NCBI GenBank assembly: GCA_964019415.1
Contig: OZ025873.1
Coordinates: 843,125 to 907,124 of the forward strand
DNA length: 64,000 nt
Source of the DNA: Ianthella basta
Taxonomy: Eukaryota > Porifera > Demospongiae > Verongiida > Ianthellidae
Direction of reading: 5' to 3'
The notes beneath the pieces are model-generated. The model was not told the DNA's origin, did no database searches, and saw only the letters and a program-made list of their open reading frames with translations. The position numbers and the translations under genes were made by a program. Every line of letters begins with the position of its first letter. Positions within the stretch are counted from its first letter, which is position 1. Shown here in pieces: positions 11,161 to 60,297 of the stretch.

Positions 11161-11344
11161 GATGTTAAGTAGGAGGTAGTGTTTGAGTGTGTGGTACTGT
11201 GATTGGTGTATGCACTAACTTATGTAAGGTGCGTGAATGTGGGTTGTGTCTGTGTCAGTGAGTACTGTCCAGTGCAGTGAAGATGTGTACAATATGTACT
11301 TCACCTAGTGTGATACAACACAGTGTATGGCATACTGCAAGCTA

Positions 11345-11505
<161 letters not shown>

Positions 11506-11606
11506 CGTGTGCATGTGTGAGCCCATGCTCTGCACTCCTACACATCCAACTGTTGGTGTGTGTGCACTAGTTCATGACCACTCCACATCTATTGTCATAC
11601 CCACAG

Positions 11607-11923
11607 GTATCCACATTGTCCTTGATGACAAGCCCTTTCTGTCTGGCCTTCTCACTGTCACACTTGACACAGTTGCCATCCAGTGGGAAGAAGTGGCCGC
11701 TCACCTTGGTATTGAGCAGTGCCTGGTGGATATGATCAAGAAGGATAACCCTCTTTGTTGTCGGGATGCATGTCAAAGCATCCTCAGTGATTGGCTGGCT
11801 CGTAAGGCCAACACTGGCAGTGAGAAGAGGTGTTGGAGCTCTGTGGTGGTAGCACTTGAGAGGAGCGGTTACTGGGAGCTGGCGTGGCAGCTGAGGGCTA
11901 GCTCAAAGGAAGCTGCCCACTAG
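11607..11923 (+). CDS. Orphan terminal death-domain exon, copy 1
   Basis: The exon follows a good acceptor (CATACCCACAG), starts in phase 1 like all death-fold exons here and stops with TAG at 11923, giving about 105 codons. The peptide reads as a death domain: IQWEEVAAHLGI, a cysteine-containing helix, ILSDWLARKAN, CWSSVVVALERSGYWELAWQLR. This matches the W..LA..LG, L..W and W..L..AL spacing of Death domains. No partner exons lie upstream: a GT tract, a minisatellite and importin exons come first, and importin exon 5 ends in phase 0, which cannot join it in frame. It is probably the detached 3' end of an older death-fold gene, cut at the duplication boundary. Confidence 0.6.
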
Positions 11924-50600: not shown

Positions 50601-52413
50601 GTGCGGTCCAGTGAAGGTGTGTGTGTATATGGTAACGTACTTCACCTCTAGTGTGATACAATACCAACACAGTATACGTACGTATAGCATGCTGCAAGCT
50701 GCAGTGGTGGTCTTTAGAACACTGTCCTTGGGACACTGAAGTGACATGTTTCTTGTGTCTGCTGTACACATTGCCATGTACTTGGTCCTGCCATGTCTGT
50801 GTATCCTCCACTGCCTGTAACAACAGCACAGTGCTGGAGTGTTGTGTACCATGTTGTGTCCTCCACTGCCTGTAACAACAGCACAGTGGTGGAGTGTTGT
50901 GTACCATGTTGTGTCCCCCACTGCCTGTAACAACAGCACAGTGCTGGAGTGTTGTGTACCATGTTGTATCCTCCACTGCCTGTAACAACAGCACAGTGCT
51001 GGAGTGTTGTGTACCATGTTGTATCCTCCACTGCCTGTAACAACAGCACAGTGCTGGAGTGTTGTGTACCATGTTGTGTCCCCCACTGCCTGTAACAACA
51101 GCACAGTGCTGGAGTGTTGTGTACCATGTTGTGTCCTCCACTGCCTGTAACAACAGCACAGTGCTGGAGTGTTGTGTACCATGTTGTGTCCCCCACTGCC
51201 TGTAACAACAGCACAGTGCTGGAGTGTTGTGTACCATGTTGTATCCTCCACTGCCTGTAACAACAGCACAGTGGTGGAGTGTTGTGTACCATGTTGTATC
51301 CTCCACTGCCTGTAACAACAGCACAGTGCTGGAGTGTTGTGTACCATGTTGTGTCCCCCACTGCCTGTAACAACAGCACAGTGCTGGAGTGTTGTGTACC
51401 ATGTTGTATCCTCCACTGCCTGTAACAACAGCACAGTGCTGGAGTGTTGTGTACCATGTTGTGTCCCCCACTGCCTGTAACAACAGCACAGTGCTGGAGT
51501 GTTGTGTACCATGTTGTGTCCTCCACTGCCTGTAACAACAGCACAGTGCTGGAGTGTTGTGTACCATGTTGTGTCCCCCACTGCCTGTAACAACAGCACA
51601 GTGCTGGAGTGTTGTGTACCATGTTGTATCCTCCACTGCCTGTAACAACAGCACAGTGGTGGAGTGTTGTGTACCATGTTGTATCCTCCACTGCCTGTAA
51701 CAACAGCACAGTGCTGGAGTGTTGTGTACCATGTTGTGTCCCCCACTGCCTGTAACAACAGCACAGTGCTGGAGTGTTGTGTACCATGTTGTATCCTCCA
51801 CTGCCTGTAACAACAGCACAGTGCTGGAGTGTTGTGTACCATGTTGTGTCCCCCACTGCCTGTAACAACAGCACAGTGCTGGAGTGTTGTGTACCATGTT
51901 GTATCCTCCACTGCCTGTAACAACAGCACAGTGCTGGAGTGTTGTGTACCATGTTGTGTCCTCCACTGCCTGTAACAACAGCACAGTGCTGGAGTGTTGT
52001 GTACCATGTTGTGTCCTCCACTGCCTGTAACAACAGCACAGTGCTGGAGTGTTGTGTACCATGTTGTATCCTCCACTGCCTGTAACAACAGCACAGTGCT
52101 GGAGTGTTGTGTACCATGTTGTATCCCCCACTGCCTGTAACAACAGCACAGTGCTGGAGTGTTGTGTACCATGTTGTGTCCTCCACTGCCTGTAACAACA
52201 GCACAGTGCTGGAGTGTTGTGTACCATGTTGTGTCCTCCACTGCCTGTAACAACAGCACAGTGCTGGAGTGTTGTGTACCATGTTGTGTTATGTTGTACC
52301 ATGTCTGGCTGTCTCTGTTCAGGAGCCTCGATTGCTGACAGCTAGGTCTAATGTCCTGCTCACAGCCATCATGCACGGCATGAGGAAGGAGGAACCAAGG
52401 TAGGTGGGCATGC

Positions 52414-59246: not shown

Positions 59247-59292
59247 ATCAGCCAACAGTCTTCCACAATAGGATTGAGAGTGCTGGCATCAT
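59247..59292 (-). promoter_or_regulatory. SECIS element (selenocysteine insertion)
   Basis: On the minus strand, ATGA (59292-59289) is followed 13 bases later by an unpaired AA (59275-59274). The returning strand ends TGTTGGC then TGAT (59250-59247). ATGAT against TGAT gives the U.U, G.A, A.G, U.U non-canonical quartet. GCCAGCA pairs with TGTTGGC (7 pairs, one a G.U) and TCT with AGA after one mismatch. It starts 43 bases after the stop codon, the right place for a eukaryotic SECIS in the 3' UTR. Confidence 0.8.
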
Positions 59293-59334: not shown

Positions 59335-60297
59335 TCAGTTACTGGATGACCGATCCAAAGCACAAAGTATCTTCTCAACACTGGGTCGATCCACTGGGTT
59401 GGCACTTGGGTGGGACATCACAACTACACCATTTCCATCAATGATGAAATCTCCACCCAACTGATAGGGATCGTCGTCCTCATACATCGGTACCAGCTTC
59501 ACACTTTGCGCTTTCTTCTCTGCATACATCTTGACAACTGCCAAGCTCCAAACCTCCCGTATTGTCCTTGGGAGACCAAACTTCTTGTACAGTTGTCTCT
59601 CCTTGTCTGAGATGAGCACATACGGGCAGTGTGTGTCGCGGATCCACTGTTCACCTGCCACAACGGCTGAGAAGGTAACTGGAACCACTCGACATGCCCT
59701 GGATGACAATGCAGCACTGGAGTCTTCAAGGTCTCTCATGTGATCACGTCACGGCATTCAGGCAAGATGGCGTAAGAGGACAAGTAGAAGATATTTATGG
59801 TCCTGCCCACTTGCGTCCTTCATTAACTTAGACAGCGGTACTACTTCTTTGCTATCCACCAGTGTGAAAGTCATGTCCATTGGCAGCTTTTCTCCCTCTT
59901 TCACTATCTCTTCATTTACAGACCCTTCAACCTCCTCCTTTCTCTTTTCAACAGTGTTGAGGAAAGACGTCCAATGATCCTCAGCTGACAGCAACTCTTC
60001 AAAACTCTCACGTACTTCAGGACATTTGAATGAATCTCTCACTACTGCATCAAACTCGTTGAAGGTCGTAGTGGACAAGTCTGAAAGAGCTTTCGCGTAT
60101 AGTCCTATGGCACGACCAAGTGTTCTCAAACCATCAACGATGAAAGAATTCACATTAGTGGAAGCATTCATCTTCTCAGCCACTTCCCCAACGAGTGCTT
60201 CGATACATTCTGCTAGCGTAAGTATGACATTGGAGATGTGCTTGGGGTTTGTCTTGATCTTTTTCACGGGCGGCTCACATTCATCATCGTCCGCCAT
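59335..60297 (-). CDS. SelL: Selenoprotein L-like protein with UxxU redox motif
   Basis: A single-exon frame of 320 residues from ATG at 60297 to TGA at 59335, if two in-frame TGA codons (59760-59758 and 59751-59749) are read as selenocysteine. They fall at residues 180 and 183 in LVLLRHLA-U-MP-U-RDHMRDL. This is where AhpC/TSA-type Prx-like2 proteins have RHFGCxxCR after a beta strand. Sequence after the second TGA continues the fold in the same frame: YVLISDKERQLYKKFGLP, then LGGDFIIDGNGVVVMSH. A frame broken by real stops would not keep both halves in register at a CxxC site. SelL is a known family of aquatic animals and bacteria with a UxxU diselenide redox motif. The N-terminal 130 residues are helical, with a basic PPVKKIKTNPK patch. 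A SECIS lies just downstream. Role: thioredoxin-like redox protein, substrate unknown. Confidence 0.85.

Follow-up and report, generated by a model that had tools for sequence, protein, structure and literature searches.

Two unrelated reading frames, or one selenoprotein?

Does the minus strand of this sponge contig carry two unrelated short genes laid end to end, or a single gene in which two closely spaced UGA codons are both read as selenocysteine (Sec, U)? The question arises in a stretch of 64,000 nucleotides from Ianthella basta, which we call the window. Running from 60297 down to 59335 (59335..60297, minus strand), one uninterrupted frame encodes 320 residues and ends in a terminal TGA, provided that the internal TGA codons are read as U. 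The original prediction, which placed two TGAs three codons apart within one frame, was borne out: TGA occurs inside the frame at codons 180 and 183 only (U180, 59758..59760, codon 59760-59758; U183, 59749..59751, codon 59751-59749), embedded in the motif RHLAUMPURDH, and we saw no other stop and no frameshift. A third in-frame TGA, at codon 321 (59335..59337), closes the frame and is followed by GAG TAA. Under the standard code the same DNA is split into an ORF of 179 aa (59758-60297) and one of 134 aa (59335-59739), the very halves into which automated annotation had been expected to break the gene. The start ATG at 60297 lies in the sequence AAGATGG, which is a good Kozak context. Because the two halves are in register and the protein family match described below is continuous across the motif, the open frame suggests a gene without an intron.

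Family and predicted fold of the encoded protein

The translated protein matched NCBIfam NF040769 (SelL_rel_redox, SelL-related redox protein) with 137.5 bits, above the curated cut-off of 120. Pfam AhpC-TSA_2 (PF13911, 43.7 bits) and AhpC-TSA (PF00578, 41 bits) were likewise above cut-off, and Redoxin, at 21.3 bits, fell below it. Comparison with the SelL and AhpC/TSA_2 families had been proposed together with the original prediction, and the SelL-related and AhpC-TSA_2 profiles both matched over cut-off. The NF040769 match spans residues 166-312 without a break and delimits a Prx-like/AhpC-TSA thioredoxin-fold domain (59362..59802, minus strand), in agreement with the claim that Prx-like sequence continues in register on both sides of the TGA pair.

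Among solved structures, the best relative by sequence was human prostamide/PGF synthase (PGFS; 9us9, 9usa), which we take to be PRXL2B. The match was weak (E 0.0012), and a profile of the six paralogous proteins described below placed the same entry first (E 0.0026). In the alignment by sequence, U180 and U183 fall on positions C44 and C47, the redox CxxC of the human enzyme, which is where the TGA pair had been predicted to lie. An AlphaFold2 model built from the six proteins, of low confidence overall (mean pLDDT 60.4, with residues 210-280 below 50), is helical over residues 18-123 near the N-terminus and thioredoxin-like further on, where one helix starts at residue 181. With this model, Foldseek matched three chains of human PGFS and four of BCP-type peroxiredoxins in the PDB at E <= 0.001, seven in all. 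The top match, 9usa (E 4.6e-5), is the C44S/C47S mutant of human PGFS, the substitutions of which fall on the very positions aligned to U180 and U183.

The N-terminal helical region (59929..60246, minus strand; model residues 18-123) was again helical when modelled alone, with a mean pLDDT of 75.0. No relative of it was recognised: Foldseek gave nothing at E <= 0.001 (best 0.24), and comparison with PDB sequences gave nothing better than E 0.67. Evr1_Alr was considered as the identity of this domain and rejected, its match being insignificant (E 0.15).

That the gene is instead a Sec-containing member of another Prx-like family, either PRXL2/SelU or the sponge AphC.like proteins, is very unlikely, even though the fold is a common one, the best solved-structure match is human PGFS and the clustered paralogues described below score under the NF040769 cut-off. 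Amphimedon, moreover, has three AphC.like selenoprotein genes, two of them in tandem, according to the available part of PMC3473315. Against such an assignment, the window protein itself is over the cut-off of the SelL-related family and has the two close Sec residues named for SelL, and the same source describes AphC.like by 'the Sec residue' and 2 to 5 coding exons, whereas here there are two Sec codons in one frame. On sequence grounds it is highly probable that the window gene is a two-Sec member of the SelL family, the published SelL proteins having been compared by description only.

A SECIS-like hairpin follows the stop codon

A selenoprotein of this kind was predicted to carry a UxxU redox motif, and beyond its family match the gene has a SECIS-like hairpin after the stop codon, singled out by its fold, position and conservation (59247..59292, minus strand). 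The element consists of ATGA, a 10-position helix, AA, an apical mini-stem and TGAT, and reads, from 59292 to 59247, ATGA-T-GCCAGCACTC-TC-AA-TCC-TATTGT-GGA-A-GACTGTTGGC-TGAT. It starts 42 nt past the stop codon and lies 456 nt from U183. A 105-nt stretch around the hairpin folds at -27.7 kcal/mol (z -3.01), as good as none of 200 shuffles, and an 81-nt stretch gave z -2.30, with 4 of 200 shuffles as good. Rfam SECIS_1 could be aligned to the hairpin from end to end with 17.2 bits (E 6.9) against a gathering threshold of 35, and an Rfam scan of the whole window at gathering level gave 0 matches.

We also searched for the element with two pattern rules. The first operates near noise: it marked 8 distinct places in the window, one being the reported SECIS, where shuffling led us to expect 2.0, and 4 places in a 30-kb stretch of the contig with the paralogues (1.67 expected), two being the hairpins of paralogues D and E. 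The second, strict rule requires 9 of the 10 helix pairs. On the minus strand of the window it found the reported SECIS as the sole place, and on the plus strand it found six copies of a dispersed repeat, with 0.25 hits per shuffled window. Since both rules also match other places, the pattern alone proves little, and the case for the SECIS is carried by position and conservation.

The repeat copies lie at plus-strand positions 2753, 3680, 15949, 16893, 28677 and 43287 and have inverted arms that mimic a SECIS core, reading GTGA, helix, AA, TGA; they are a likely source of false SECIS calls. We also looked just downstream of the UGAs for a stem-loop that might aid recoding, but the folds of two stretches there were no more stable than those of shuffled sequences (z +0.95 and +0.54).

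The position of the hairpin also bears on the third TGA. The minimum UGA-SECIS spacing reported for Dio1 is 51-111 nt in the available part of PMC3316567; because the 42 nt found here are fewer, the terminal UGA is probably too near the SECIS for recoding and would act as a true stop. Sec insertion at this codon, which would extend the protein by two more residues before the TAA, is unlikely, given the 42 nt to the SECIS core and the fact that the five intact paralogues, unlike the window gene, end in TAA or TAG.

A cluster of paralogues retains both UGA codons

Searching the 209-Mb genome with NF040769 and with the window protein returned the window gene and six further places, all in a 21-kb cluster at 1.78-1.80 Mb on another contig, C5; these counts are lower bounds. 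The cluster comprises five intact UxxU genes, each in a single frame, and one decayed fragment. Genes A, B and C lie on the plus strand with motifs GUFVUR, GUPPUR and GURPUH, and genes D and E on the minus strand, both with GUQPUC. The fragment (C5:1788369-1788638, minus strand) retains 88 matched residues without the half that bears UxxU, has TGA at a Trp position and, judged by eye, a damaged 5' arm of its SECIS. The cluster proteins are 26-30% identical to the window protein; identity is 81-83% among A, B and C, 88% between D and E, and 45-50% between these two sets. In the genome search the five intact cluster genes scored 78-81 bits against NF040769, below its cut-off of 120, and the profile matches all six proteins at E <= 0.01.

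Alignment columns 200 and 203, which correspond to U180 and U183, read TGA in every one of the six intact genes, and the aligned coding parts of these genes (324-327 codons) hold no further TGA. That five intact paralogues from the same genome share both TGA columns and have no other TGA argues that the pair is more than chance. Relatives with neither Cys nor Sec at these two sites would have spoken against the original prediction; each of the five has TGA at both. Apart from the two Sec sites, two cysteines, C202 and C224, are invariant in all six genes.

These comparisons make it extremely unlikely that the window gene derives from a CxxC Prx-like protein as a pseudogene, its two Cys codons having turned into TGA stops. 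A change from TGC or TGT to TGA does take one step, and the cluster contains a truly decayed copy; yet both TGAs are kept in all six intact genes across a saturated synonymous distance, the window gene shows no further stop or frameshift, and its SECIS-like hairpin is kept. Four recent paralogue pairs have dN/dS of 0.27-0.40, indicating purifying selection on them; between-set pairs with finite dS (n=4) gave 0.12-0.18 at dS 2.9-3.9, too saturated to weigh, and synonymous differences between the window gene and the others are saturated, so that selection is not measurable for the window gene itself.

Each of the five cluster genes has ATGA, a 10-position helix, AA and [TC]GA 54-101 nt past the start of its stop codon. 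Judged by eye, each of the six genes has one SECIS-like hairpin where it would be expected, and the strict rule finds four of them (the window gene, D, E and B), missing A (7 pairs) and C (8 pairs); in the 30-kb stretch of C5 it found nothing beyond D, E and B. Of 60 helix positions, 53 pair when each arm is matched with its own partner (window gene 9, D 10, E 9, A 7, B 10 and C 8, each of 10); this count comes from hand-picked arms, a choice biased towards pairing. When arms were swapped between genes, the mean was 6.45 of 10 pairs over the 22 cross-group combinations and 7.03 of 10 over all 30. Several helix positions differ on both sides between genes. RNAalifold found 5 of 13 pairs changed on both sides, with a covariation term of only -0.11, on an automatic alignment that misplaces some helix arms.

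The genome has some Sec machinery genes and a separate mitochondrial code

The genome contains a tRNA-Sec (75.4 bits against a gathering threshold of 47) with anticodon TCA; two weaker RNA matches were identified as tRNA-Ser by ARAGORN. SepSecS was found in one stretch with 120.9 bits. One exon of a glutathione peroxidase (GPx) translates as VVNVASQUGL, its Sec site being TGA, and another GPx has Cys there. A genome search with the TIGR00476 profile for selD/SPS gave no match, perhaps because that gene is split over exons and was missed by the profile.

In the mitochondrial contig (C96, 21.2 kb), cox1 has nine in-frame TGA codons that are read as Trp, and AGA stands where we would expect Arg. 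One further frame on this contig we take for atp9, a gene whose presence in the mitochondrial DNA of an animal is indicative of sponges and would fit a demosponge, and the 20 kb scanned by ARAGORN gave 20 tRNA genes. ARAGORN applied the label tRNA-Sec, with anticodon TCA, at L028:8780-8852 and L029:3855-3925 on the same contig. As TGA reads as Trp in the cox1 of that contig, these two are more likely tRNA-Trp or chance matches than tRNA-Sec.

A reading frame alone cannot show which residue is inserted. Judged on the genes described here, readthrough of the UGAs with an ordinary amino acid, or an altered nuclear code, is nevertheless extremely unlikely: the UGAs sit on redox Cys sites and are followed by a SECIS-like element, and the genome encodes tRNA-Sec, SepSecS and a GPx whose Sec site is TGA. 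TGA for Trp was seen in mitochondrial cox1, a separate code.

A putative diselenide protein and its possible amplification

If the window gene is a two-Sec SelL, both UGAs would be decoded as Sec from one SECIS. Both Sec residues would stand where helix one of a thioredoxin/Prx-like fold begins, the place of the CxxC in a solved relative, and the pair would most likely alternate between a reduced state with two selenols and an intramolecular diselenide. A diselenide has been attributed to SelL in the available parts of PMC2397514 and PMC12822975. From such cycling it would follow that the window protein is a thiol/selenol oxidoreductase. More speculatively, the invariant C202 and C224 may take part in resolving or reducing the diselenide.

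We propose more tentatively, giving it somewhat less than even weight, that SelL has been amplified in this sponge to at least six intact two-Sec genes (twelve Sec codons) that would form a specialised diselenide redox system. This proposal, held at that strength as a whole, includes the five clustered genes, their two oppositely oriented subclades, a changed SECIS helix belonging to each gene and a helical N-terminus, with a partner or substrate that perhaps differs between the subclades.

Few proteins combine two genetically encoded Sec residues in a single redox motif. Here one genome supplies six intact natural variants, all with a SECIS-like element of their own, on which to study how two neighbouring UGAs are decoded through one SECIS and why an organism would prefer a diselenide to a disulfide. 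Standard annotation could lose the whole gene cluster and, if the amplification is true, would break it at every UGA pair.

Other features of the window

Positions 1061-50566 contain many repeated segments of ~1-6 kb with 87-97% identity (from matches > 800 bp, of which the best 40 were listed), within which lie four ORFs, related to one another and 351-385 aa long. A Pfam scan of two of these ORFs gave no match at E <= 0.01. The region looks like a recently expanded gene array. The ORF at 11327-11923 has a Death domain (24.3 bits, cut-off 22.6). A minisatellite at 50800-52289 consists of 27 copies of a 55-bp unit with 97% matches, and the repetitive minus-strand ORFs of 522-672 aa that it yields are probably spurious.

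Comparison with known systems

UxxU motifs are known from several settings: the available parts of PMC2398784 and PMC9312934 report UxxU Prx-like proteins in prokaryotes, and that of PMC7539508 describes amphioxus and an alga as having a SelW with UxxU. Our scans of prokaryotic contigs (7 pattern matches with the protein, 92 with the alignment) and of viral contigs (30 with the alignment) gave no confirmed relative; these scans used two to six short peptide patterns and do not show absence.

Human PGFS resembles the window protein in its fold and in the position of its redox pair, with C44/C47 corresponding to U180/U183. It differs in having Cys for Sec and in sharing 15-19% identity, and its chain of 198 residues leaves no room for the N-terminal helical region. 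The Amphimedon AphC.like proteins are closer in setting, being sponge selenoproteins with a thioredoxin-like domain and with two of the three genes in tandem, but they have one Sec residue and 2-5 coding exons, by which the description in the available part of PMC3473315 sets them apart.

The nearest known system is SelL (SELENOL) itself: like it, the window gene, from an aquatic animal, combines UxxU with a thioredoxin-fold Prx-like domain, and it has one putative SECIS. In the available part of PMC3473315, Amphimedon, Trichoplax, Nematostella, Capitella and Branchiostoma have a single SelL each, and Lottia has none. Against this one or none per invertebrate (n=6), Ianthella has at least six intact genes, and the five in the cluster are divergent. 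No SelL gene cluster was seen in the literature that we searched, which is weak evidence as most subscription journals lay outside its scope. The SelL family, including a member in the sponge Amphimedon, is already published (PMC3473315, available part); the window gene would be a new SelL of that published family, and the amplification is the sole part that may be new.
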